Assembly (NCBI GenBank): GCA_019192515.1
Contig: JAHCMM010000231.1
Location: 14,453 to 50,524, forward strand
Direction: 5' to 3'
Source: Cyclobacteriaceae bacterium SS2
GTDB lineage: Bacteria > Bacteroidota > Bacteroidia > Cytophagales > Cyclobacteriaceae
DNA: 36,072 bases
Under the pieces are notes generated by a model. That model was given only the letters and a program-made list of their open reading frames with translations, was not told the origin of the DNA and did not search any database. Made by a program: the position numbers and the translations under genes. The first letter of the stretch is position 1. Each line of letters starts with the position of its first letter. Of this stretch, positions 1,071 to 14,945 are shown in pieces.

Positions 1071-1685
1071 TTATTGTTTTTGTAATACCTGAACATATCT
1101 TACAATCTTCCATCGCTCTTCTTCGCTAAGCTGAGAAGCGTGGGAACCCATTCTGCCTTTTCCATGTGTAATAACATGGTAGATATGCCCTCCTGGCTTA
1201 TCTACAACAGTAGCAGAATTATATGCTGTTACCCCAAGGAAGACCTGACCAACTAATCCATCTCCTGCACCCTTGGATCCATGGCAATGAATACAAAATC
1301 TTTCATATAAGGCTTTACCCTGTGCAACAACCTCTTTGGTGCTATCCAGTGGATTGACCAGTTCGATTGCAGCAGTTTCAAAGTCATCTTTTGCAATGTG
1401 GTTAGGCAATGAACCTCTTTTGATTGTGTTTTCTACAGGTTCCAACATGGTCATTCCATAAGGGTTGTACGGATTAGAGTTATAAAACTCACCGTGACCA
1501 TCCTCAGGGTTTGAGTCTAACCAGGTTCCCATAGATTCATCCTGCACCTGAGAAAGTGGCTCATAAGGTGTGGAATGATACATTTGTGGTGCATATTCAA
1601 GACCAGGATTATCTACCCCAGCCGTGCAACTGGCCACTACCACTGCTACAACAACCAATAATATTATCTGTACTCCTTTTTGCAT
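1071..1685 (-). CDS. actE: Alternative complex III monoheme cytochrome c lipoprotein ActE
   Basis: 204-residue monoheme c-type cytochrome subunit of alternative complex III, expected on the periplasmic face. Residues 1-20 form a lipoprotein signal ending in the lipobox VASC (Cys20 the lipidated residue). A single CxxCH heme site lies at Cys131-His135 (CIHCH), and Met179 in GRMGSH is the likely sixth ligand. The long segment 21-115 is rich in Pro, Asn and Tyr and is typical of the family's N-terminal wrap around its partners. The gene sits 3 nt after the actD stop and before actF, in the canonical act order. In the family it receives electrons from the ActA hemes and hands them to a soluble carrier or an oxidase. 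Confidence 0.92.
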   Translation of the reverse strand: MQKGVQIILLVVVAVVVASCTAGVDNPGLEYAPQMYHSTPYEPLSQVQDESMGTWLDSNPEDGHGEFYNSNPYNPYGMTMLEPVENTIKRGSLPNHIAKDDFETAAIELVNPLDSTKEVVAQGKALYERFCIHCHGSKGAGDGLVGQVFLGVTAYNSATVVDKPGGHIYHVITHGKGRMGSHASQLSEEERWKIVRYVQVLQKQ

Positions 1686-1688
1686 GCC

Positions 1689-2213
1689 TTACAGCGTTTT
1701 CTTATTTACTTCAGATGCTCCACTATCTTTTAAGATCTTGGATATTTTTCCTTCATCAAGATCATTTTTTCCCAGGTCTACTGCCATTACGTGTTTGTCG
1801 TCAGTGATCCTAAGATCAAATATTTTTGGTTTACCCCATGGCTTCAGGTTGGCAACTACGAAGAACGTGCCCACCATTCCGAATGCAGCAAGTAATACTG
1901 TCAATTCGAAGGATACAGGGATGAAAGAAGGAATCGGAATATAGTCTTTTCCACCAATGATCATAGGCCAGTCAATCCCCATCATTCCAATTTGCATGAT
2001 CAAGGCCAGTGAGGTACCGGTAAGACCAAAAAGGAATGCTACGATTGTCAACCTGGATCTTTTATACCCTAAAGCATCATCAATACCATGCACAGGGAAC
2101 GGAGAATAGACTTCATGGATTTTTACTCCACTATTCTTTACTTTTTTGATCGCATCAAGAAGGACTTCCTCGTCCTCAAACACACCAGTTAAATAATTAC
2201 TAGTTTCAGCCAT
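1689..2213 (-). CDS. actD: Alternative complex III subunit ActD (DUF3341)
   Basis: 174-residue DUF3341 protein. The N-terminal part (YLTGVFEDEEVLLDAIKKV, then KIHEVYSPFPVHGIDDALGY) is the typical small alpha/beta domain, followed by two membrane segments at roughly residues 56-76 and 100-122. In solved alternative complex III structures ActD is a peripheral membrane-anchored subunit without cofactors, and its exact role is unclear. Its ATG at 2213 lies 8 nt inside the 3' end of actC, so translation of the two is probably coupled, and actE follows after 3 nt. Confidence 0.92.
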   Translation of the reverse strand: MAETSNYLTGVFEDEEVLLDAIKKVKNSGVKIHEVYSPFPVHGIDDALGYKRSRLTIVAFLFGLTGTSLALIMQIGMMGIDWPMIIGGKDYIPIPSFIPVSFELTVLLAAFGMVGTFFVVANLKPWGKPKIFDLRITDDKHVMAVDLGKNDLDEGKISKILKDSGASEVNKKTL

Positions 2214-3579
2214 TACTTTTAACTTTTTCGCCAGTTGCTTTAATAATACTCTTCACCTCTGCAATATTGATTACCGGGAAGAACTTCGCAAACAACAAGA
2301 ATGCTGTGAAGAAAAACCCGATACTGAAAAGGTACATCCCCATATCGTAGATCGTAGGGTAAAACATTGCCCAACTAGAAGGCAGAAAGTCTCTGTGTAA
2401 CGAGGTAACAATGATGACAAATCGCTCAAACCACATTCCGATATTCACAACAATTGATAAGACAAATGTTGCTGCAAGATTCGTTCGTATCTTTTTGAAC
2501 CAGAACAGCTGTGGTGAAATCACATTACAGGTCATCATAGAGGCATACGCCCACCAGTAAGGACCTGAAACCCTGTTTAAGAAGGCATACTGCTCAGCTT
2601 CAACTCCGGAATACCAGGCAATGAAAAGCTCAGTGATATAAGCAATACCTACTATTGATCCGGTGATGATGATAATGATGTTCATCAGCTCGATGTGCTG
2701 AATCGTAATATAATCTTCAAGTCTATACACTTTCCTGGTGATCAGGAGAAGTGTAAGTACCATCGCAAATCCTGAGAAAATCGCCCCTGCAACGAAATAT
2801 GGAGGGAAAATTGTGGTGTGCCATCCAGGAATTACCGAAGTGGCAAAGTCAAAAGATACAATGGTGTGTACAGAAAGTACAAGTGGTGTAGCAAGACCCG
2901 CCAGGATCAAAGCTACTGTTTCATATCGTGACCATGTTTTGGCTGCGCCGTCCCATCCGAAACTCAACGCACCATAGATGGTTTTGGAAATCTTATTAGT
3001 GGCCCGGTCTCTGATGGTAGCAAAGTCAGGGATTAGCCCGATATACCAGAAAACAAGAGAAACAGAGAAATATGTACTAATCGCGAAGAAATCCCAAAGT
3101 AGTGGTGAGTTAAAGTTCACCCAAAGTGATCCGAATGTGTTCGGAAGCGGAATGGCCCAGTACATACCCAGCCATGGTCTACCCATGTGCAGGATCGGGA
3201 ACATCAGGGCACAGATTACAGCGAAAATTGTCATCGCCTCAGCTGCCCTGTTGATGGACATTCTCCATCGCTGTCTGAATAGCAAAAGAATGGCAGAAAT
3301 AAGTGTTCCGGCGTGACCAATACCAACCCACCATACGAAGTTGGTGATATCCCAGGCCCAACCAATGGTCTTATTAAGTCCCCACATTCCGATACCGTTC
3401 CATACTGTCATCCACACAGCATAAGCACCCACTGTAAGGGCACCTAATGAGACTGCTGTAGCTAACAACCATGTTTTGGATGGCTTATCCTCCACCCTAC
3501 CCGCGATATCATTAGAGACATCGTGAAGGGTTTTATGACCGGTTACTAAAGGTTCACGTACAGATGATTCTGCTATCAT
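2206..3579 (-). CDS. actC: Alternative complex III membrane subunit ActC (NrfD/PsrC family)
   Basis: 457-residue polytopic NrfD/PsrC-like protein, expected to bind the quinol and couple its oxidation to the membrane. After a polar N-terminus (about 35 residues) there are about ten hydrophobic segments. Recognisable stretches include WWVGIGHAGTLISAILLLF, FPILHMGRPW and SVHTIVSFDFATSVIPGWH, all typical of ActC, where the conserved His and Asp residues lie near the quinol site. It starts 4 nt after the actB stop and overlaps actD by 8 nt. ActC and ActF are homologous to each other within the complex; the context makes the assignment to ActC firm. Confidence 0.95.
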   Translation of the reverse strand: MIAESSVREPLVTGHKTLHDVSNDIAGRVEDKPSKTWLLATAVSLGALTVGAYAVWMTVWNGIGMWGLNKTIGWAWDITNFVWWVGIGHAGTLISAILLLFRQRWRMSINRAAEAMTIFAVICALMFPILHMGRPWLGMYWAIPLPNTFGSLWVNFNSPLLWDFFAISTYFSVSLVFWYIGLIPDFATIRDRATNKISKTIYGALSFGWDGAAKTWSRYETVALILAGLATPLVLSVHTIVSFDFATSVIPGWHTTIFPPYFVAGAIFSGFAMVLTLLLITRKVYRLEDYITIQHIELMNIIIIITGSIVGIAYITELFIAWYSGVEAEQYAFLNRVSGPYWWAYASMMTCNVISPQLFWFKKIRTNLAATFVLSIVVNIGMWFERFVIIVTSLHRDFLPSSWAMFYPTIYDMGMYLFSIGFFFTAFLLFAKFFPVINIAEVKSIIKATGEKVKSNG

Positions 3580-3583
3580 TACT

Positions 3584-6500
3584 TTATGCTTCTCCGTTTA
3601 CAGTTTTAACTTCATCTTTATTCCTAATCTTGGTCAGGTACCAAACATTAGGCATCACTCTCAACTCTTCCAACACATGGTAAGCCCTGTCTTCCATGGC
3701 TTCTACCATTTTCTCACTATTCTTTATTTTCAATCTCTGTGAGATCTCGCTTGAAGGATCCTTCATGTCACCAAATACAAGTGCTTCCGAAGGACATGCA
3801 CTGGCACACGCAGTAACAGCATCGCTATCCACAGGTCTTCTTCCTTCTTTCTTAGCCTCAAGCTTACCGTACTGAATTCTTTGTACACAGAATGTACATT
3901 TCTCCATCACCCCTCTTGCTCTTACCGTCACATCAGGATTCAGTACCATCTTGCCAAGATCATTGTTCATTGGTGTGTTGTCCGCAAACTGCTCGTTGTC
4001 ATGGTATTTGAACCAGTTGAATCTTCTCACTTTGTACGGGCAGTTGTTTGCACAATACCTGGTTCCGATACATCTGTTGTAAGTCATCTGGTTGAGTCCT
4101 TCACTACTGTGTGTAGTAGCTGCAACAGGACAAACAGTCTCACATGGAGCATTGTTACACTGCTGACACATCATTGGCTGGAATGTCACTTCAGGATTTT
4201 CCGAAGCTTTTTCCATAGCCGCATAATTTCCTTCATCAGCGTCTGAGCTGTAGTACCTGTCGATCCTGATCCAATGCATCTCGCGTCGGTTCAGTACTTC
4301 AGTTTTACCTACAACCGGAATATTATTTTCTGACTGACAAGCTACTGTACAAGATCCACATCCAGTACAAGAGTTGAGGTCAATCATCAGTCCCCAGTGG
4401 TGATTAGGATACTCATGGCCTTTCCATAGGGAAACTGCATGAGGTTTTACCTTTTCTCCATTGGCTTTGGAAATCATCGGGAAATGCCTTCCAGCCTGAG
4501 GATCCTTCTTATATTCAGAAAGAATACTTTCCTGGATCACAGTTTCTCTGCCCATATAAGTATCATGGGTTTGAGTTTGAGCGATTCTGTAGCTTGCTCC
4601 GGTTGGCTCTACAGATACACCACTTGTGATTGAATAAGCTAAGCTACCTCCATTACTTGCGATGAAAGGATAAGCATTAACTCCAATATTGTTAGCTACT
4701 TTACCAGCTTTGGTTCTTCCATATCCCAGTGCCAGACCAACAGTGTTGTATGCCTGACCAGGTTGTGGCATTACCGGCACTTCTACTGTCGTACCTCCAA
4801 CAGTCAGGTTCACCTTTTGGGTCGACATATCACCCAGCTTGATGCCCCACTCTTCTGCTTGTTTCGGAGAAACAGTCAGGTAGTTGTCCCAGGTAGCTTT
4901 GGTAATAGGATCTGGCATCTCCTGCAACCATGGATTGTTTGCCTGAGTACCATTTCCAATGCTATTTTTTTCGTAAATGACTAATTCAATCCCATCAGAT
5001 TTACCTGATACTGAAATACCACTTAAATCAACATTAGCCTGAGGTGAGTCTCCCTCAGTAGCAGCTGGCTCAAAGAATCCGTCATGAAGACTCTTGTCCC
5101 AGAAGCTGATAAAGCTGGAGAAACCAGAGGCCTGCGGATAGATATTTGCAGTCCAGTATTCCTGGATGATGTCATAATAAGACTTTGATTCTCCACTCCA
5201 GGTCAGGAGTGAGTCCTGTACCTGACGGGTATTGAAAATATTTTTGATAGTAGGTTGTGACAGGCTGTAGTTGCCGGTGACAATCTCAAAATCATTCCAT
5301 GATTCCAGATAATGATGATCCGGAGTCTGATATTTTACCAAAGAAGCAGTCTCATCGAGTCTGTCTGAAGTAGATACAGACAGCTTCACTTTACTCAACC
5401 CTGAAGCGATTTGACCGCCAAGTGGATGATCATAAACAGGGTTACAGTTGATGAAGATAACACCCGCTACCTGACCACCATTCAAGGCTTTTACAAAAGC
5501 TTCAAATTGCTTATCACTACCTTTTCTGGTATTTAATGCTTTGTTTACATCGATAGTAGATCCGTAGCTACCTAAAAGGTTGTTGATAGCAACAACGATT
5601 GATTGGATCTTAGCATCGTTCGAGCCACAGACAACAATGGCTTTTCCCTGAGAGGCCAACAGGTCTGCTGCAGCTTTCTTTAGAATAGCACTATCAGCTT
5701 TGGCACCTCCTACGGTCGGCTGACCTAATTCGGAAGCAATGGCGTTGTAAAGACTCGCAACATACGCTCCAGTTTCTGAAGCTTTGATTGGTTGTCTGTA
5801 GTCTGCATTTGCTCCTGTAAGGGAAAGATTTGACTCGAAAGCATAGAGCCTGGACATGTCCTTTTTGGTGTCAGACAGCCTTCTTGTCTTGGCAAACTCA
5901 TTATTATTATAGGTGTGGTTTGGCCACGTCCCCAGGAAATCAGCTCCAAAACTTACGATTGTTTTTGCTTTGCCAAATTCATGTACAGGAAGTACCTTTT
6001 TGCCAAATGCTTTTTCGTAAGCTTCCGTGAGACCACTCAACGACATGGTATCGTACATGATGTGATCTGCAGGAAAAACTGATTTAAATTTCTCAATAAC
6101 ACTTAATGTAGAAGGGCTGGCAATAGAATTGCTGACAATGGCAATTTTTCCGCCTGCAGCAGCCAGATCTTTTTTGATAGCCGAGTCAATTTCATCCCAT
6201 GAAACAGATGAGCCACTCTCCATCGGTCCTTCCAGTCTTTCTTTGTCGTAAAGTGAAAGCACTGAAGCCTGGGCCTGAGCACTGGTACCTTTACCACTTA
6301 TTTTAGAAAGCTTGTTTCCATCTATGTAGATGGGTCTACCTTCTCGTGTCTTCACTACTACAGGCAGGGCATCGCTGCCACTCACATACGTAGAGGCATA
6401 GTAGTTAGGAACAGATGGATCTACTGAAGCAGGCTTTGATACATAAGGTATGGCCTTTTTCACTGGTGTCTCGCATGCAGCTAATGAAACCGCAGCAACA

Positions 6501-6655
6501 CTAAAACCCATCATTTTTAGAAAATCTCTCCTGTTGGGTCCATCTTCTCCTGCTATAGGTAGATATTCTGGAAATTCCTTATCGGCATGCTTTTTAAACT
6601 CCGCATTGTCAGCGAGTTGCTCAAGTCCTTTCCAATATTTCTTTGTTCCTTTCAT
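3584..6655 (-). CDS. actB: Alternative complex III iron-sulfur subunit ActB (Tat-exported molybdopterin-oxidoreductase-like)
   Basis: Large periplasmic iron-sulfur subunit that carries electrons from quinol towards the c hemes. I prefer the ATG at 6655 (1023 aa). A TTG eight codons upstream (6679) is possible, but GGAAGA just before the ATG and the usual family start MKxTKKYWKG favour 6655. A twin-arginine signal NRRDFLKMMGFSVAAVSLAAC has Arg42-Arg43 and a lipobox Cys61. The middle is a molybdopterin-oxidoreductase fold; family members bind no molybdenum there. From about residue 760 come four ferredoxin-type Cys groups: CTGCGSCTVAC, CQQCNNAPCETVCP, CIGTRYCANNCPY, and CTFC with CASACP. Located between actA (33 nt upstream) and actC (4 nt downstream). 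Confidence 0.95.
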   Translation of the reverse strand: MKGTKKYWKGLEQLADNAEFKKHADKEFPEYLPIAGEDGPNRRDFLKMMGFSVAAVSLAACETPVKKAIPYVSKPASVDPSVPNYYASTYVSGSDALPVVVKTREGRPIYIDGNKLSKISGKGTSAQAQASVLSLYDKERLEGPMESGSSVSWDEIDSAIKKDLAAAGGKIAIVSNSIASPSTLSVIEKFKSVFPADHIMYDTMSLSGLTEAYEKAFGKKVLPVHEFGKAKTIVSFGADFLGTWPNHTYNNNEFAKTRRLSDTKKDMSRLYAFESNLSLTGANADYRQPIKASETGAYVASLYNAIASELGQPTVGGAKADSAILKKAAADLLASQGKAIVVCGSNDAKIQSIVVAINNLLGSYGSTIDVNKALNTRKGSDKQFEAFVKALNGGQVAGVIFINCNPVYDHPLGGQIASGLSKVKLSVSTSDRLDETASLVKYQTPDHHYLESWNDFEIVTGNYSLSQPTIKNIFNTRQVQDSLLTWSGESKSYYDIIQEYWTANIYPQASGFSSFISFWDKSLHDGFFEPAATEGDSPQANVDLSGISVSGKSDGIELVIYEKNSIGNGTQANNPWLQEMPDPITKATWDNYLTVSPKQAEEWGIKLGDMSTQKVNLTVGGTTVEVPVMPQPGQAYNTVGLALGYGRTKAGKVANNIGVNAYPFIASNGGSLAYSITSGVSVEPTGASYRIAQTQTHDTYMGRETVIQESILSEYKKDPQAGRHFPMISKANGEKVKPHAVSLWKGHEYPNHHWGLMIDLNSCTGCGSCTVACQSENNIPVVGKTEVLNRREMHWIRIDRYYSSDADEGNYAAMEKASENPEVTFQPMMCQQCNNAPCETVCPVAATTHSSEGLNQMTYNRCIGTRYCANNCPYKVRRFNWFKYHDNEQFADNTPMNNDLGKMVLNPDVTVRARGVMEKCTFCVQRIQYGKLEAKKEGRRPVDSDAVTACASACPSEALVFGDMKDPSSEISQRLKIKNSEKMVEAMEDRAYHVLEELRVMPNVWYLTKIRNKDEVKTVNGEA

Positions 6656-6688
6656 ATTTCTTCCTGGAATCAAATTCAAGTCAGTTTT

Positions 6689-7969
6689 TTAATAATGACA
6701 TTTAGCACATTCAAGACCTCCGATATCCTCTACAACCATCGGTTCTTTACTATGCTCCTCGTGTAATTCAATTAATTTAGAATAGTATTCGTTGCCTTTG
6801 GAATTCACCTCTGTCTCTCTGTGACAGTTGATACACCAACCCATGGTCAAAGGCGCATACTGGTAAACAACTTCCATTTCCTCGATTGGTCCATGACATG
6901 TTTGACATTCCAAACCACCAACTTCCACGTGCTGTGAGTGGTTGAAATATGCAAGGTCAGGGAGGTTGTGGATTCTTACCCATTCAATAGGCTTCTTATC
7001 AGGGCCATATTGACCGGTATTAGGATCATAATCCACTGCGGCATAAATTTTTGCGATCTCAGAAGATACTCCAGCTTCACCACCTACATTTTGTATGGCT
7101 GAGTGACAGTTCATACAAATGTTTGGAGAAGGAATATTCGCTGATTTGGCTTTTCTTACTCCGGTATGGCAGTAGTTACAATCAATTTCATACTGACCAG
7201 CATGCAACTCATGTGAAAATGCGATAGGTTGTGTGGGCTGGTAACCTTGCTGCACACCGATGGTAAACGCACCATCGATCAATGTCTTGAGCAGGATGGC
7301 TGTGAAAAAGAAGATCACTACCCCGGCTACTGCGTCAGACTTAAGAAGCTTGAGCAGGTCGAATTTCTGATCCAGAATCTCTTTGTCTTCTTCTACAAGA
7401 TCTTTTTTCTCTTTAAGGTATCGCTGAAGTACTGATACAATCAGCACAAGCACTACCAGAATCAGTAGAAGTACTACTACAAGTACAACTAATATTGCGG
7501 TGAGGTAACCTGAAGGAATAGAATCGCCACCAGCTGCTGCTACTTCTCCACCTGCTGCTGCGCCAGGCTGTGCTGCCTGAACAGGCTCATTAGCAGATTC
7601 AGCCTTCACATAAGCAAGCAAGCTTAGAATTTGATCATCCGAAAACGGATAAGAAGGCATGGCTACCTGGTTATATTCTTCGTAGAGTGCTACTGCGTAT
7701 TCATCTCCACCTTGAATGACTTTTTGTGAGTTTCTAATCCAATTGAGCAGGTAACCTGTTTCCAATCTATCCGTTACACCCTTAAGTGCAGGTCCGATTA
7801 CCTTTTTATGTACCTGGTGACATTGCGTACAATTGGCCTTGAAAAGTGCTTCACCTGATGAAATCACCGCTTCGTCAGTCGGAATCTCCTGACTATAAGT
7901 AGCGAATGAGACAACAAAAAGTATTATGAAGCTTAATATCTGAGGGCGAAATCCTGAGGCTTTAGACAT
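6689..7969 (-). CDS. actA: Alternative complex III multiheme cytochrome c ActA (six CxxCH sites)
   Basis: 426-residue cytochrome heading the act operon. A signal peptide (residues 1-27) precedes a monoheme cytochrome c domain (Cys47-His51, CTQCH) and an Ala/Gly/Pro-rich linker at about 128-150. Two hydrophobic segments follow (about 155-180 and 212-230). The C-terminal multiheme domain has five sites: CNYCH 264-268, CMNCH 285-289, CQTCH 355-359, CINCH 379-383 and CAKCH 421-425. The last five sites match the pentaheme core known for ActA; the N-terminal monoheme domain is an added module. Predicted to pass electrons from the ActB clusters to ActE. The gene starts at an ATG about 46 nt downstream of the transcription start predicted from the promoter at 8023-8053. 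Confidence 0.93.
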   Translation of the reverse strand: MSKASGFRPQILSFIILFVVSFATYSQEIPTDEAVISSGEALFKANCTQCHQVHKKVIGPALKGVTDRLETGYLLNWIRNSQKVIQGGDEYAVALYEEYNQVAMPSYPFSDDQILSLLAYVKAESANEPVQAAQPGAAAGGEVAAAGGDSIPSGYLTAILVVLVVVLLLILVVLVLIVSVLQRYLKEKKDLVEEDKEILDQKFDLLKLLKSDAVAGVVIFFFTAILLKTLIDGAFTIGVQQGYQPTQPIAFSHELHAGQYEIDCNYCHTGVRKAKSANIPSPNICMNCHSAIQNVGGEAGVSSEIAKIYAAVDYDPNTGQYGPDKKPIEWVRIHNLPDLAYFNHSQHVEVGGLECQTCHGPIEEMEVVYQYAPLTMGWCINCHRETEVNSKGNEYYSKLIELHEEHSKEPMVVEDIGGLECAKCHY

Positions 7970-8018: not shown

Positions 8019-8033
8019 GTTACAAATGTAACA
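8019..8033 (-). promoter_or_regulatory. Crp/Fnr-like palindrome overlapping the act -7 box
   Basis: The minus strand reads TGTTA-CATTTG-TAAC, that is GTTAC and GTAAC arms around AAAT, the half-site spacing used by Crp/Fnr-family regulators. It covers the -7 box exactly, so a bound protein would be expected to repress. It could also be a chance symmetry in an AT-rich promoter. Confidence 0.35.
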
Positions 8034-8053
8034 CGGGGGGTGTGTATTTCAAA
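8023..8053 (-). promoter_or_regulatory. Bacteroidota-type promoter of the act operon
   Basis: On the minus strand TTTG (8053-8050) is followed after 19 nt by TACATTTG (8030-8023), an exact match to the phylum's TTTG / TAnnTTTG promoter pattern. Transcription would begin near 8016 and leave a leader of about 46 nt before actA. No experimental evidence is available; the call rests on motif, spacing and position. Confidence 0.72.
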
Positions 8054-8202: not shown

Positions 8203-9273
8203 CTACTCTACCACCTTGTCTATATAGCTGGAATTCAATAAACTCAAAGCGCCCATATATTTCAGCTTAAATTTGATCCAATCGCCTACTTTGAAGTTCC
8301 TTTTCGAATTTCCCAAATCAATTACCAACATGTCTGAACTGGCCCCACTAATCTGGAGTTCTTCGTCAACGGGGATCATATAATCAGTGGATATATCCAG
8401 TAGACCTAAATCAAGAATTGCACGGTAGGATTCTTTCCCATAATCATCCTCATCGATCTCATATTTTTCACCTGAAGGATTCGTTGCTAATTCGCCAACC
8501 GGGACTTTGGGTTTTTTAATAAGCTCAATGATCTGAGCATTTAAGGTAAAGACATCCTGCTTCATCTTTTTGATCGGAGCTTCAGCTACCAGGTCTGTGC
8601 CAAAGTAAAGTGTCTCCCCCACCCTGAAGTGATTTACCCCTTTTGGCAACTGCCTACTCATCAGTAATGGAATTACTACAGAAGTACCGCCGGAAACCCA
8701 TGGAATCTTCTTATCAAACTTGGCTTCGATCAACTGCTCGTATAAGCTAAGCTGAATCAATTTATCCTGGGATGGCATTACTCCATGTAAACAATTGAGG
8801 TTGGTCCCAATGCCTACTACCTGAATGTTAGGCAGCTCAAACACTTTGCCATAGAAGTCAAGCAGCTGTTCCCCCATCACACCTTCGCGCAGATCGCCCA
8901 TCTCAATCATGATGATGATCTTATGGACCTTGCCTTGCTTTTTGGCTTCCTCTGATATCAGTCGAATGGTAGACAGCTCAGTATTGAAACTTACATCTGC
9001 ATATTTCACCACTTTAGGTATAGCCTTCTTGGCTGGTGGCTTGATATAAACGGTCTGCACATTCGGATCAATTTCTTTGGCAACCTTCAAATTGCTTATC
9101 CGGGAATCATGTGCCTCTTTTATACCCAGCTGGATCACCTCGTTGATAAACTTCTTATTACCACAGAGTATTTTCGTGACAACACCCCAACTGATGTCGT
9201 TTTCCTTAAAGAAATTCTCCAGGTAAGAATAGTTATGCTGTAGTGACTTTCTCTTCAGCGTTATGTAAGCCAT
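8203..9273 (-). CDS. Alanine/ornithine racemase family PLP enzyme
   Basis: 356-residue fold-III PLP enzyme of the alanine racemase N-terminal superfamily, subgroup annotated as alanine/ornithine racemase. The PLP lysine is Lys34 in SWGVVTKILCGN; other familiar pieces are EAHDSRISNLK, IIMIEMGDLREGV, GTNLNCLHGV, WVSGGTSVVIPLL and FRVGETLYFGTD. It lacks the C-terminal alanine racemase beta domain of its neighbour and ends in its own small beta domain (about 255-356) with ASSDMLVIDLG. Its ATG lies 41 nt inside the end of the upstream alr-like gene, so the two are surely co-translated. The substrate cannot be told from sequence; ornithine, alanine or another amino acid are possible. It is the last gene of the six-gene minus-strand run. 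Confidence 0.85.
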   Translation of the reverse strand: MAYITLKRKSLQHNYSYLENFFKENDISWGVVTKILCGNKKFINEVIQLGIKEAHDSRISNLKVAKEIDPNVQTVYIKPPAKKAIPKVVKYADVSFNTELSTIRLISEEAKKQGKVHKIIIMIEMGDLREGVMGEQLLDFYGKVFELPNIQVVGIGTNLNCLHGVMPSQDKLIQLSLYEQLIEAKFDKKIPWVSGGTSVVIPLLMSRQLPKGVNHFRVGETLYFGTDLVAEAPIKKMKQDVFTLNAQIIELIKKPKVPVGELATNPSGEKYEIDEDDYGKESYRAILDLGLLDISTDYMIPVDEELQISGASSDMLVIDLGNSKRNFKVGDWIKFKLKYMGALSLLNSSYIDKVVE

Positions 9274-10450
9274 TTTTTGAGTTTTTGGTAATAAATGCTT
9301 CGGTGTTGACCACCTTTCTAGGTATATTATGCGGTAAACGAGTTAAAAGTTCATAATTCAGGAGATTACTGAGCTCACTAAACGACGCCACCGAAACGGA
9401 TTGATCGCCCTGATCACCAATTAGGATCACTTCATCTCCTTTTTTCACTTCCGGTGCTTCACTGATATCCACCATTAGTATGTTCATGTTGACAATCCCA
9501 ATCACCGCCAGCCTTTTGCCCCCAATCAGCACTCTCCCCTGATTACTCAGTGATCGGGAATACCCATGGGAATATCCGACTGGCACGGTTGCCAACTTCA
9601 TATTTTCAGATGCCATAAAGGTTGTACCATACCCGATAAACTCTCCAGTAGTTACCTCCTTTACATCCATCACAGTGCTTTTCCATTTGATCACTCGCTT
9701 CAGTGGATCCACACGATCAGTCTTATTCTTTAAATAGTCAATGATTGTTTCTCTGCTCGGCCAAAATCCATATTGCAGGATGCCGATTCTTACCATGTCC
9801 ATCCTACTCTTGGGGTAACTCATGGCAGCGGCCGAGCAGGCAGTATGTCTCATCATGGGGTTGATACCTTGTGACCTTAGCCACTGATCCATCTTGTTGA
9901 ATCGTTTGATCTGGCTTTTTACCCTCACATAGTTGGCTATACTTTCGGCCCCGGCATAATGTGTGCAGTCTCCGCATACTTCCAATACATCCAGATTTTT
10001 CTGAATGAGTGGAACAACCTTTTTTAGCTGATCCTGACTGAATCCAGTACGATTGAGTCCAGTTTCAAATTCTATATGTATGCGTGCCTTCTTACCCAGC
10101 TTCTTCGCAGCCTCGATTGCAGCCATGATTCGCCCACTTTCAAAAACGAAAAATTCCACATCATGCTCTACTGCCCATTCTACCTCACTATCATCTATAA
10201 AGCCCATGATGAGAACCTGGGGATCATTGCCGGCTGCTTTCACAGCATAGGCTTCACTTGCACTGAAAACAGAAAAATGATCCACGTTGGCCATTTCAGC
10301 CATGGGGATGAATTCATTGATACCATGGCCATAAGCATTGCCTTTGACGACTGATGAAAACCTGATATCCGGTCCCAGGATGCCTCGGATTATTTGAAGA
10401 TTGTTTAATAAAGCTGAATAGTCAAGTTCTATCGTAGAAGAAGCCAGCAT
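9233..10450 (-). CDS. Alanine racemase-like PLP enzyme with altered active-site residues
   Basis: 405-residue full-length Alr-type racemase: TIM barrel to about residue 245, then the C-terminal beta domain. Lys36 in VVKGNAYGHG binds PLP and Tyr274 in FIGYGTTF is the opposite catalytic base; Arg221 (VRIGILQYG) matches the conserved PLP-contacting Arg. Several usually fixed residues differ. The family's NS becomes CS (Cys205-Ser206, HTACSAAA), and the CMDQ stretch of the second domain becomes NMNI (321-324). The substrate pocket may therefore not be tuned to alanine. About 25 extra residues at the C-terminus overlap the next gene by 41 nt. In Bacteroidota the cell-wall alanine racemase is often a MurF-Alr fusion, so this separate copy is probably catabolic or specialised. 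Confidence 0.85.
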   Translation of the reverse strand: MLASSTIELDYSALLNNLQIIRGILGPDIRFSSVVKGNAYGHGINEFIPMAEMANVDHFSVFSASEAYAVKAAGNDPQVLIMGFIDDSEVEWAVEHDVEFFVFESGRIMAAIEAAKKLGKKARIHIEFETGLNRTGFSQDQLKKVVPLIQKNLDVLEVCGDCTHYAGAESIANYVRVKSQIKRFNKMDQWLRSQGINPMMRHTACSAAAMSYPKSRMDMVRIGILQYGFWPSRETIIDYLKNKTDRVDPLKRVIKWKSTVMDVKEVTTGEFIGYGTTFMASENMKLATVPVGYSHGYSRSLSNQGRVLIGGKRLAVIGIVNMNILMVDISEAPEVKKGDEVILIGDQGDQSVSVASFSELSNLLNYELLTRLPHNIPRKVVNTEAFITKNSKNGLHNAEEKVTTA

Positions 10451-10509
10451 ATATGGAATTTGATTGGTAGAAGAAATGCAAAGTTAAAAAATGATCCCTA
10501 AGTGGTGGA

Positions 10510-11655
10510 TCACGATGCCTGATCAGACAGTTGTTTCTGGATTTCTGACATCATCCGAATACCCGTTTCCAGGATCTCATCAGGGAAATCATAATCGGGA
10601 TTGTGCAGTGCAGGTGATAATGTTCCGGCTCCTACTCCAAACATGGCTCCGGGATATTCCCTGGTAAACAATCCAAAATCCTCACCCCACTTAAAAGGTG
10701 TGATTCTTTCTTCCATTTCCAGCTGCAGGTTCTCCGCAGAATTCACAATAGCTTCAACCACCATATCATTGTTTTCATTGGCAAAAAAACTTTGCGTCCA
10801 TCCAAATTCTATTTTTAGCCCATATTGTTTACCTATTTCGCGGGCTACAGACTCACATTTTGACTCCAAAGATTGCATAACCTCATTGTGCCAGGCTCTC
10901 AATGTAAAATGCGTCTCTCCATATCCAGCCGAGACACCATAGGACTTCTCCCCTAACCTATAATATATAGGTGTAATGATCTGGAAGTTATGGTCCTCAG
11001 TGTCCGGGATACAGAGGGCTTCAAACTTTTTGGTCACCTCTGCCATGGCCATTGCAGGATTCAGTCCCAGCTCTGGCTCTGCTGCATGTGAGGTCTTCCC
11101 AAAATATTTAATGATAATGCTATTGGCTGCGGCAGTGAAGACGTCCTGTCTATAGACTATTTTGTGTTTGGCATAACCCGGCAGATTATGAAGAGCAACC
11201 GCAAAGTCTGGTGACAGCTGTTTAAACTTTTTATCAGACAGAATTCCCTTGGCGCCGTCTCCAGTCTCCTCAGCTGGTTGAAACAGCAAAATAGCATCTC
11301 CCTTCGCAGGTCTTTGAGTAGCATATTCTTTAGCCAGGCCGTAAAGTATGGCAGAATGGCCATCATGGCCGCACTTATGGCTGACTCCTTCTTTTATGGA
11401 TTTATATTCAATCTCGTTGATCTCCTGAATAGGCAGGGCATCCATGTCTCCCCTGATCAGTGTTCGTTTTCCAGGTTTAACACCTTTATATATGACAGCA
11501 AGCCCATAATTATCAAATTGAATAATTTCATCGGGGTCACACTGTTTGATTTTCTCAAGGATAAACCATGAGGTCTCCTTTTCGTGGTTTGATAACTCAG
11601 GATTTTGGTGAAGATATCTCCTGAACTGAATAACCTCCGGTAGATGATCTGTCAT
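10510..11655 (-). CDS. M20 family amidohydrolase/metallopeptidase
   Basis: 381-residue zinc-dependent hydrolase of the M20D amidohydrolase group (hippuricase, IAA-amino acid hydrolase, N-acyl-amino acid deacylase relatives). Metal-ligand motifs are visible: Cys and His in HKCGHDGHSAILYGLA, the acidic pair in PAEETGDGAKGIL, His in VALHNLPGY, and the late His in SPALHNPDYDFPDE. The lid/dimerisation domain is recognisable in the middle (KYFGKTSHAAEPELGLNPA). No signal peptide, so it acts in the cytoplasm, removing an acyl group or splitting a small peptide. It begins 1 nt after the GNAT gene stop and lies 59 nt upstream of the alr-like gene. Context suggests it frees an amino acid that the racemases then act on. 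Confidence 0.88.
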   Translation of the reverse strand: MTDHLPEVIQFRRYLHQNPELSNHEKETSWFILEKIKQCDPDEIIQFDNYGLAVIYKGVKPGKRTLIRGDMDALPIQEINEIEYKSIKEGVSHKCGHDGHSAILYGLAKEYATQRPAKGDAILLFQPAEETGDGAKGILSDKKFKQLSPDFAVALHNLPGYAKHKIVYRQDVFTAAANSIIIKYFGKTSHAAEPELGLNPAMAMAEVTKKFEALCIPDTEDHNFQIITPIYYRLGEKSYGVSAGYGETHFTLRAWHNEVMQSLESKCESVAREIGKQYGLKIEFGWTQSFFANENNDMVVEAIVNSAENLQLEMEERITPFKWGEDFGLFTREYPGAMFGVGAGTLSPALHNPDYDFPDEILETGIRMMSEIQKQLSDQAS

Positions 11656-11656
11656 T

Positions 11657-12097
11657 TCAGGATTTTATCAGTCGCATTTCCAAATACTTGTTGGTAAAGC
11701 CCAGTTTCTCATAAAGGATCTTGGCCGGGTTATCAGGTTCTACATGAAGTGCTATGGCTCCTTCAGCTTCGTCGATCGCTCGTTGCATCAACTTTTTACC
11801 CAGACCTTTGCCTCGCTGGTCTCTGTGTGTGGCAATATAAACAAGGATATTTTCAGGTATATAGCCTTCCATACCGGTCTTATTTACCACCACAGCCCCG
11901 GCAATTTGATCACCTTCATATCCTACCACAATAAAGCCTCCTGGCGTGATGCCTTTGTTCAGGGCATAATTGATGGCTTTCATGATATCCTCCTTCTTAT
12001 CCCCGTACTGGTCGAGGTGCTCATATAAAAAGTCTCTTATTTGTTGTAGCTGAACCAGGCCCACCGTATGTGCAGGCTTGAATACTTCGATTTTCAT
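11657..12097 (-). CDS. GNAT family N-acetyltransferase
   Basis: 146-residue single-domain GNAT protein. The acetyl-CoA pyrophosphate-binding loop is RDQRGKGLGKKLMQRAIDEA, preceded by the usual beta strand ILVYIATH, and the C-terminal part IALHVEPDNPAKILYEKLGF holds the family's NPxxxxYEKxGF signature. The acceptor is unknown. Its ATG overlaps the symporter stop in an ATGA arrangement (12094-12097) and the M20 gene follows after 1 nt. Together with an amidohydrolase this could form an acetylation/deacetylation pair acting on an amino acid or amine; that is inference from proximity only. Confidence 0.85.
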   Translation of the reverse strand: MKIEVFKPAHTVGLVQLQQIRDFLYEHLDQYGDKKEDIMKAINYALNKGITPGGFIVVGYEGDQIAGAVVVNKTGMEGYIPENILVYIATHRDQRGKGLGKKLMQRAIDEAEGAIALHVEPDNPAKILYEKLGFTNKYLEMRLIKS

Positions 12098-13527
12098 GCT
12101 GTATGTGTGGTTAAAATTCTATTTAAAGATAAAAAAGTGATTAGTGACATCGCAATTCCATATATATTGGCATCCAGTCCCAGAGGTAAAGAGATGTCTA
12201 AAATGATCAGGCAAATGGTTGTAACTCCTCCGACCAGCATGCTGAAAAATGCTGCATTTGGGTTGGGATTTTTGAGAAATAATCCCCCCAGCACCGGAAT
12301 AAAAAGTCCCGATACCATAAAAGCATACGAATACAGCATAAGTTCCAATACACTCTGCATAAACGAAGCCAGCAACAAGGCTAAAACACCTATTATTAAA
12401 GTGAATAGCTGGGAGAGTTTAAGAAACTTTTTGGTATTCGTGCCTTCAAAACCAATGATATCAGTCACGAGGTTTCCCGAAGAAGCCATCAGGCAGCTAT
12501 CGGCAGTTGAAAGAACTGCAGAAAAATAAGCAGACATCATCAGTCCTGTGAGACCCACTGGCAATACCGTCCTCAGTAGCAAGGGCAATCCAACTTCCGC
12601 ATCCATACCTTCAGCAGTAGCAAATCCAGCATACTCAAACATACCCTGATCCGCTCCTACCCGGGCAAACATCCCAAGTAAGACACCCAATAGGGCCATA
12701 ATCGGCCATTCGAATATTCCGGCGATATACCAGGCCTTTTGTGCATCCCGTTTGCTCTTGCAGGCGTAGATCCTTTGATAAAGTGTCATCCCTACAAACC
12801 AGATCGGGATAATGGTGATACCCCAGTTGACAAGATCCTGCCAGGTAAGATTGCTAAAGCTTAGAAAATTGTCAGGCACCGAAGCGGTAAGACCTGCATA
12901 GCCTCCAATGGCGTGATAGCAAAGAGGTATTCCGATAAAGATCAGTCCTGAAAGCAGCAACCCCCATTGAATGGTATCTGTATAGATAACTGCCTTGAGA
13001 CCACCCATTACAGTATAAACTACCGCAATAGTACCCATGATAAAAAGGGCATTCTGAAGACTGAGAGAAACAAAAGTGGATGACGCCAATTTGGCACCCG
13101 CCAATAATTGTGAACTGGTAAATCCCGCATAGCCAATAGCTGATATAATACCCGCCAGAAGTGCTGTCTTTTTATCATAAAAGACTTTAAAAATTTCCGG
13201 GAAGGTGTATAGTCTTTTAAATCCCGGGATCTCTGTAATCCGCGGAATAAGAATAACCGCCGCCAGCCATGCCCCCAACAATCCGGTAAAAAGCATCCAT
13301 GAACCTGAGATGCCCATGGTAAAGCCCAGTCCACCAAGACCGATCGAGAATCCTCCACCAACATCGGTAGCCACGACAGAAAGCCCCACGTGCCAGCTGC
13401 TCATGGTTCTGCCTCCTACGTAATAATCATCTGTACTTTTATTGGATCTGAGAAAATAAGCCCCTACCCCGAGCATCAATAGAATGTAAACGATAAAAAC
13501 GGTAAGGTCTATCCAGTGAATGTCCAA
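12094..13527 (-). CDS. Sodium:solute symporter family transporter
   Basis: 477-residue secondary transporter of the SSS family (relatives carry proline, pantothenate, sialic acid or sugars with Na+). About 13 hydrophobic segments are seen. Family features are the early STDDYYVGGRTMSSWHVGLS, then ATDVGGGFSIGLGG, and YFSAVLSTADSCLMASSGN in the later half, the last matching the conserved Na+-site region. No ATG is available: the frame opens with TTG at 13527, a stop lies just upstream, and the next in-frame Met (residue 19) would cut into the first membrane segment. The substrate is not readable from sequence. Its place before GNAT, M20 and two racemases suggests amino acids, acylated amino acids or short peptides. 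Confidence 0.88.
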   Translation of the reverse strand: MDIHWIDLTVFIVYILLMLGVGAYFLRSNKSTDDYYVGGRTMSSWHVGLSVVATDVGGGFSIGLGGLGFTMGISGSWMLFTGLLGAWLAAVILIPRITEIPGFKRLYTFPEIFKVFYDKKTALLAGIISAIGYAGFTSSQLLAGAKLASSTFVSLSLQNALFIMGTIAVVYTVMGGLKAVIYTDTIQWGLLLSGLIFIGIPLCYHAIGGYAGLTASVPDNFLSFSNLTWQDLVNWGITIIPIWFVGMTLYQRIYACKSKRDAQKAWYIAGIFEWPIMALLGVLLGMFARVGADQGMFEYAGFATAEGMDAEVGLPLLLRTVLPVGLTGLMMSAYFSAVLSTADSCLMASSGNLVTDIIGFEGTNTKKFLKLSQLFTLIIGVLALLLASFMQSVLELMLYSYAFMVSGLFIPVLGGLFLKNPNPNAAFFSMLVGGVTTICLIILDISLPLGLDANIYGIAMSLITFLSLNRILTTHTA

Positions 13528-13595
13528 AATATGTTATGATCTGTTTCAACTTATTCGCCAAACTATAAAATTCAACTCGCGGACCATAGGAATGT

Positions 13596-14945
13596 TTAGT
13601 TTTTTTCAAAATTTTCCACTTTTTGGACACTTTCCGGAAGTACCATTTCATACAACCAGGTATGGATCTGAGGTCGCACGTTAAGTTCGTAGATGGCACG
13701 GTGATCCCTGCTTGGGTATACCCTATTGGAAAGAAAGATGTATAACAGGTCGTGCATAGGATCCACCCAAACGAAAGTACCTGTATATCCGGAATGTCCG
13801 AAGCTATAAACGCTGGCTCTCTCTGCCACACTACTCAATTTAGGATCGTATTCCAACAGAGGCTTATCAAATCCCAGGCCTCTTCGGCTATCATTTGAAG
13901 GGTATTGATATGAACTAAATAATTCAATGGTAGCAGGCTTTAGATAACGCTTCCCTTTATACTCTCCACCATTGAGAAGCATTTGCCAAACCTTTGACAG
14001 ATCCGATGCATTGGCAAAAAGTCCCGCATGTCCCGAAACTCCCTTCATGAGGATGGCACCCTCATCATGAACTGTGCCGTGGATATTTTCCATCCTGAAA
14101 AAAGTATCGATCTCAGTAGGTACAATCGAGGAAGGATCGTAATTGAGCAAGGGGTTAAATCCAATAGTAGCTGCTTCCAGGGAATCGTAGTAATGATATC
14201 TCAGAAACTCTTCATACTCCATTCCTGTCAGATTGGTAACGATCTCCGGAACCAGGTAGAAAAACAGATCGGAATAGATATATTTCTTCTCTTTATGATA
14301 GGTAGAGTGCCGGATCATCTTTTTGATCTTCTGGTAAAAATCCTTGTGTACATATTTTCCATCAGCTGCCTTGAAGGGGTATTCTTCAGATTGTTCCTCA
14401 GCCAGGGTACGAGATCTGTATTTTCCATTTTTCTTTTTGATCTCCTCATAAAATTTGATCCAACTCTGAAGTCCGGCCTGGTGTGACATGGCTTCCCGGA
14501 TAGTAGATCTCCCCCTCTTGTTCCATCCAAAACCTTTGACATAATCCTTGATGGGATCATCTAGCTGAACAAGTCCCATTTCATACAGCTTCATCATCGC
14601 CAGTACTCCACCTGTATTCTTAGAAACAGATGCCAAATCGAAGATGTCATAGAAATTCATGGGTTGCAGGCTATCGTAAGTATGAAAGCCGTATGATTTA
14701 GAGAACAGTTCTTCTCCTTTATATAAGGTATGGATGACGCAACCCGGAAACGCTTCAGAAGCTATTGCATGAGCAACCAGGCTATCGATCTTCGCACCAA
14801 GCATTTCTGCTTTTGAAGGCTGGGCCTGTATAGTATCGATTTTGGGGACAGAATCCAGGCTAATCGACAGGCTATCTGACTGCGCAAAAGCAGAAACTTG
14901 AATAATTGTGAATAATAAAAGAATGACAATTGTTCTATAAGACAT
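13596..14945 (-). CDS. Secreted serine hydrolase (beta-lactamase/PBP-like)
   Basis: 449-residue class C beta-lactamase-like serine hydrolase. Residues 1-22 are a signal peptide ending AFAQ, so it works in the periplasm or outside. Active-site motifs are SVSK (SxxK) in DLASVSKNTGG, YSD in YIYSDLFFYLV as the YxN-like element, and HSGYTG near the C-terminus as the KTG equivalent. The block HDEGAILMKGVSGHAGLFANASDL closely resembles the hydrolase half of Bacteroidota proteins in which this domain is fused to a family-3 beta-N-acetylglucosaminidase, which suggests a peptidoglycan-related substrate. It is first of the minus-strand run, 68 nt before the symporter, and divergent from serBA. Esterase, D-aminopeptidase or carboxypeptidase activity are all possible. 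Confidence 0.87.
   Translation of the reverse strand: MSYRTIVILLLFTIIQVSAFAQSDSLSISLDSVPKIDTIQAQPSKAEMLGAKIDSLVAHAIASEAFPGCVIHTLYKGEELFSKSYGFHTYDSLQPMNFYDIFDLASVSKNTGGVLAMMKLYEMGLVQLDDPIKDYVKGFGWNKRGRSTIREAMSHQAGLQSWIKFYEEIKKKNGKYRSRTLAEEQSEEYPFKAADGKYVHKDFYQKIKKMIRHSTYHKEKKYIYSDLFFYLVPEIVTNLTGMEYEEFLRYHYYDSLEAATIGFNPLLNYDPSSIVPTEIDTFFRMENIHGTVHDEGAILMKGVSGHAGLFANASDLSKVWQMLLNGGEYKGKRYLKPATIELFSSYQYPSNDSRRGLGFDKPLLEYDPKLSSVAERASVYSFGHSGYTGTFVWVDPMHDLLYIFLSNRVYPSRDHRAIYELNVRPQIHTWLYEMVLPESVQKVENFEKN

Follow-up and report, generated by a model that had tools for sequence, protein, structure and literature searches.

A GNAT acetyltransferase gene and an Orr-type racemase gene as the proposed core of a conserved Bacteroidota cluster, possibly for amino-acid salvage

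Why would two different racemases be encoded beside an acetyltransferase, an amidohydrolase and a Na+ symporter, and do such genes share a function? The question is raised by a 36,072-nucleotide stretch of the genome of Cyclobacteriaceae bacterium SS2 (GCA_019192515.1, contig JAHCMM010000231.1, positions 14,453 to 50,524; hereafter the window), in which six consecutive minus-strand open reading frames encode, in order, a secreted S12 serine hydrolase, an SSS-family Na+/solute symporter (SSS), a GNAT N-acetyltransferase, an M20 amidohydrolase, an Alr-type racemase and an Orr-type racemase (families assigned with Pfam and NCBIfam). The reading frames, strand, coordinates and gaps reported in the initial annotation (−41 to +68 nt; along the run +68, −4 with an ATGA overlap, +1, +59 and −41 nt) were all verified. 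We read the locus, with a probability of roughly 0.4, as one instance of a conserved Bacteroidota module for amino-acid salvage or D-amino-acid handling.

Conservation of the neighborhood is the first line of evidence. Relatives of the Orr-type protein (8203–9273, minus strand) were gathered from 59 related genomes and a species-genome scan (which gave 80 loci from named organisms), and from an even phylum sample of 296 genomes, of which 42 had a match and 39 a scorable locus. Partners were counted when a translated search placed them on the same strand within 6.5 kb of the Orr-type gene. All 39 loci of the even sample carry the GNAT gene, 30 the SSS, 20 the M20, 18 the Alr and 16 an M23-type peptidase gene; the corresponding numbers for a second set of 103 loci are GNAT 98, SSS 76, Alr 58, M20 47, MarR regulator 17, M23 6 and serine hydrolase 4. 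Pooled over 142 loci, GNAT is found at 137, SSS at 106, Alr at 76 and M20 at 67, although these are not counts of independent events, because the two sets overlap in some species and some contigs stop near the gene. None of GNAT, SSS, M20 or Alr was found on the opposite strand within 6.5 kb at the scored loci, and none of the four accompanies the racemase at ten outgroup Orr-family loci (the clostridial ornithine operon, Vibrio, Ruegeria, Salmonella plasmids and others).

GNAT-Orr linkage spans several orders, with carriers that include Fulvivirga, Algoriphagus, Cyclobacterium, Belliella, Pontibacter, Salibacter, Cryomorpha and a Lutibacter metagenome-assembled genome (MAG), as well as MAGs of Saprospiraceae, Balneolales, Rhodothermaceae and Ignavibacteria. 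Gene order varies (SSS-GNAT-Orr; GNAT-Orr-SSS-M20-Alr; SSS-GNAT-Orr-M23-M20-Alr), and the retention of linkage through this reshuffling argues for selection on the linkage itself instead of frozen inheritance. The cluster is real and widely conserved. A conserved, linked set is what the initial annotation had supposed when it noted two racemases of distinct fold-III subfamilies with an M20 enzyme, a GNAT and a Na+ symporter; when the neighborhood comparison it had called for was run on its six genes, five recurred together and the serine hydrolase did not. Its emphasis on M20 and the racemases has to shift, since the most constant pair is GNAT and Orr. We propose these two as the core and M20 with Alr as a second pair. 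The nearby same-strand MarR gene we count in favor of the salvage reading. In the Lutibacter MAG (L128:5113–7472), genes of the proline-racemase family and for a DAO-type oxidase lie directly 5′ of MarR-GNAT-Orr, a single case not used as evidence. In Balneolales and relatives, a stand-alone M23-type peptidase gene lies within the cluster (L133:7049–7633, L119:4684–5307, L112:10068–10796).

The Orr-type protein, a fold-III pyridoxal 5′-phosphate (PLP) enzyme of the alanine/ornithine racemase family, matches Ala_racemase_N with 48.9 bits in Pfam and scores 328.5 bits against the ornithine racemase model racem_Orr (NF040742), under its cut-off of 480. The PLP lysine K34 and R217 are invariant among 138 aligned cluster sequences and the outgroups, and residues K34, R58, R129, C161, R217, D314 and Y339 are common to the cluster proteins and the clostridial enzyme. 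In the tree, however, the cluster sequences group as a single, long-branched clade (support 0.71), so that, as judged from its sequence, the protein is a distinct subfamily separate from ornithine racemase. Its structural model (mean predicted local distance difference test, pLDDT, 86) is nearest to the folds of alanine, serine (VanTg) and lysine racemases, with a template-modeling (TM) score of about 0.7; a sequence search of PDB returned nothing at E ≤ 0.001, and a profile search gave one weak lysine-racemase match. At the position of the Alr catalytic tyrosine, placed by reading the alignment, neither the cluster proteins nor authentic ornithine racemases have a conserved tyrosine. RacX of Halocola was considered as a homolog and rejected, as it is modeled on the cofactor-independent racemase EcL-DER (PMC12838360). 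Elsewhere in the phylum, locus L214 (2235–9025) appears to hold an ornithine-degradation operon of the clostridial type, the last gene of which is an Orr gene of the authentic type.

Its constant partner, the GNAT protein (11657–12097, minus; Acetyltransf_7 and Acetyltransf_1 in Pfam), has invariant acetyl-CoA loop residues R95, G96, G98 and G100 in 19 relatives and is single-copy, with no paralog in its own genome at E ≤ 1e-5. The M20 protein (10510–11655, minus; Peptidase_M20, 99 bits) scores 197.6 bits against TIGR01891, above the cut-off of 153.75, which places it with M20D amidohydrolases of the N-acyl-amino-acid deacylase type; it has the motifs CGHD and PAEE, and its nearest solved structure is YxeP of Bacillus subtilis. 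The symporter (12094–13527, minus, TTG start; SSF, 156 bits) is closest to PutP among named specific subfamilies, yet at 145.4 bits it falls far under the TIGR02121 cut-off of 515.5; its solved relatives include vSGLT and other SSS proteins. Paralogs in its own genome are only 26–32% identical to it, and in the tree the cluster symporters form one clade apart from them (support 0.999). The M20 tree has no clean single clade, so orthology is less sure there than for the symporter.

The second racemase, Alr (9233–10450, minus; Ala_racemase_N and Ala_racemase_C), scores 299.9 bits against TIGR00492 (cut-off 168), and K36, R134, R221 and Y274, which include the catalytic lysine and tyrosine and the PLP arginine, are conserved in 55 relatives and the paralogs from its own genome. 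Position 374 varies in the same sequences (H/Q/R/L/E; H374 in the window). The residue in the Bacillus enzyme that corresponds to it, Tyr354, governs specificity (PMC3485190); this alanine-specificity tyrosine is absent from the window protein, the position having been placed by reading the alignment near the xxIPR motif. The protein thereby resembles VanT, Lyr and Bar, Alr-type enzymes that lack the specificity tyrosine, and differs from them in that the residue is variable within the cluster family, whose activity is predicted. A serine-racemase signature, with Asn in the place of Tyr354, was considered and dropped when realignment put H374 there, not N375. In our best explanation we propose that the Alr pocket is opened. 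An Alr paralog 47% identical to the window protein occurs in a further three-gene set, found in the same genome (L220:2842–7232, contig C109) and at L072:10148–14632, together with a 407-aa ATP-grasp-like protein and a 641–667-aa protein with the motif GNNPTCQSAR, which has no Pfam match and, for the own-genome copy, no NCBIfam match. At L072 the set lies immediately 3′ of GNAT-SSS-Orr; its make-up resembles that of a cluster combining a peptide ligase with a racemase.

How might these parts work together? Families, catalytic residues, folds and linkage are established; we infer the substrates, the direction of flow, the D-amino-acid role, acetylation of the alpha-amine and the Na+ coupling. 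The symporter would import an amino acid or a small acyl-amino acid, and the Orr-type enzyme would interconvert the D and L forms of the imported amino acid. GNAT would N-acetylate one form, most likely trapping or detoxifying a D-amino acid, or else feeding an acetylated intermediate. Roughly half of the loci add an M20D deacylase, which may hydrolyze N-acyl (including N-acetyl) amino acids, and the Alr-type enzyme, which, with its opened pocket, may racemize the released amino acid into the L pool. Several points weigh against this reading. The substrates of all five proteins rest on inference, and M20 and Alr are absent from roughly half of the loci. An alpha-N-acetylated molecule cannot form the PLP aldimine and is therefore not open to PLP racemization, which makes the role given to GNAT a guess; given that PLP racemases require a free amine, acetylation would have to come before or after racemization on a different enantiomer, or fall on another nitrogen. 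At L202, L203 and L204 (genomes of the same class, probably Flavobacteria), GNAT-Orr is flanked by a gene for a universal stress protein and one for an AraC regulator, and the symporter is missing, a setting that fits uptake and catabolism poorly.

Two described systems may, by analogy, serve as precedents for the logic of such a module. In the D-glutamate pathway of DgcN (DUF1611), the racemase acts on an acetylated amino acid. That pathway likewise places an N-acetyltransferase gene in a racemization route, and dgcN is described as the key gene for irreversible racemization of acidic D-amino acids (PMC12363236). The cluster differs in that its acetyltransferase is a GNAT and its racemases, Orr and Alr, are PLP enzymes; a DUF1611 gene is present at 0 of 142 loci and lies on another contig of the same genome. 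Four of the ten outgroup loci have this separate, DgcN-like acetyltransferase family beside their Orr-family racemases, which we count in favor of the salvage reading. The second precedent is the S-(2-succino)cysteine operon yxe of B. subtilis, where the acetylate-then-deacetylate logic of GNAT and M20D is established (YxeL/YxeP; PMC9706529) and which also combines YxeL, YxeP and a transporter in one cluster; our cluster has no monooxygenase/lyase step, has two racemases, and has a Na+ symporter in place of the ABC transporter. The cluster is apparently an undescribed combination of known enzyme families: as the initial annotation supposed, no pathway with exactly this set was found in the literature searched, nor any published description of the cluster. 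It may tentatively be seen as a widespread Bacteroidota pathway, parallel to the DgcN route and built of unrelated parts around the near-obligate GNAT and Orr-type pair, that would act on amino acids other than glutamate.

We favor salvage over three other functional explanations, which follow in descending rank. The first is diamino-acid or compatible-solute metabolism, in which Orr would racemize ornithine, lysine or diaminobutyrate, GNAT would acetylate the side chain, M20 would deacetylate it and the symporter would take up an osmolyte. Ornithine racemase is the closest characterized family to Orr, and with the side chain as the site of acetylation the alpha amine stays available for PLP chemistry. 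The M20 protein also scores 167 bits (below cut-off) with DoeB2, an acetyl-diaminobutyrate deacetylase; several carriers are marine or halophilic, judged from their names, and a universal stress protein gene adjoins GNAT-Orr in some Flavobacteria. The sub-threshold ornithine racemase score and the separate clade speak against it, however, and the ornithine-degradation genes (ord, ortAB, oraSE), linked to authentic Orr genes at L139 and L214 (read by eye), are absent from the window locus and from the recurring neighbors of the cluster loci. A search of the same genome for OAM_alpha gave no match, but its controls likewise gave none. Nor do osmolyte biosynthesis genes recur in the neighborhoods, and we consider this explanation unlikely, if the strongest of the three.

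Salvage of peptidoglycan fragments, by outside hydrolysis, uptake, dipeptide splitting and racemization of D-Ala or similar, was the idea of the initial annotation, which drew on a resemblance of the serine hydrolase (13596–14945, minus) to the hydrolase half of GH3 fusions. That protein (Beta-lactamase/S12, 126 bits; SxxK at 106, HSG at 384) is nearest to PBP4B-like S12 enzymes, far below their cut-off, and its closest paralog in the same genome (827 aa, 35%) has no GH3 domain in Pfam. Its place upstream of the cluster favors this explanation, but its four loci all belong to the clade of the window, which also shares the downstream respiratory genes; being clade-limited, it is not evidence for the source material of a pathway, and the main reason for invoking peptidoglycan falls away. 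The serine hydrolase is not part of the module, contrary to its earlier placement in the pathway, and an accidental neighbor is its best reading. The M23-type gene at 16 of 39 phylum-sample loci also favors a peptidoglycan source, yet visual inspection shows no evident signal peptide in its product, which, of the named matches, scores best with the M23 portion of PRK06148 fusion proteins and not with a wall endopeptidase. We know of no SSS protein that imports muropeptides, which also counts against this explanation, and we hold it improbable.

Less probable again is a non-metabolic role in which GNAT, as a protein or N-terminal acetyltransferase, would regulate Orr or the symporter. The solved GNATs nearest to it by profile include several N-alpha-acetyltransferases, whereas the fold matches of its model (pLDDT 90) are to GNAT folds in general and unspecific, and the family that fills its place beside distant Orr relatives, DgcN-like, is described as a metabolic enzyme.

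Transcription bears on the last alternative. Across loci the gaps are short (median 3 nt from GNAT to Orr, about −5 nt from M20 to Alr; the value from Alr to Orr is distorted, since the window Alr has a longer tail). In the window, M20 and Alr are separated by 59 nt (10451–10509, minus), which hold TGATCC-N9-GGATCA-T6, a 6-bp perfect terminator-like hairpin with a T run (minimum free energy −7.9 kcal/mol), then TAACTTTG, a Bacteroidota −7-like motif at 10479–10486 that is not enriched in the window. Hairpin and TAACTTTG are kept in the same-genus genome at L034 and absent at L035 and L053; sigma-70-type promoter and terminator scans gave chance levels. A single six-gene operon is therefore likely but not certain, which softens the "almost certainly" of the earlier reading. 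That the genes are same-strand neighbors by accident, with no common function, would accord with this hairpin and −7-like motif, yet for five genes it is contradicted by phylum-wide linkage in altered orders and is barely credible.

The wider surroundings are peculiar to this lineage. Downstream of Orr, a minus-strand run (1071–7969), led by genes for a cytochrome c-type protein and a large molybdopterin/FeS-like protein, presumably encodes Alternative Complex III; it adjoins the cluster only in the clade of the window and has its own TTTG-N19-TACATTTG motif at 8023–8053, the count of which in the window does not clearly exceed chance. On the upstream side, a divergent gene encodes a fusion of SerB with SerA (phosphoglycerate dehydrogenase). 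A connection to serine biosynthesis through this gene and serC-like genes, also divergent, was considered and rejected, as the adjacency is restricted to the same clade.

D-amino acids make up part of the marine organic matter that breaks down slowly, and the genes with which Bacteroidota handle them are poorly known; a pair that is constant at 137 of 142 loci, with no function assigned, is a concrete target. If its products do act on D- or N-acetyl-amino acids, the pair would mark carriers in metagenomes and would add a second acetylation-linked racemization route beside that of DgcN.

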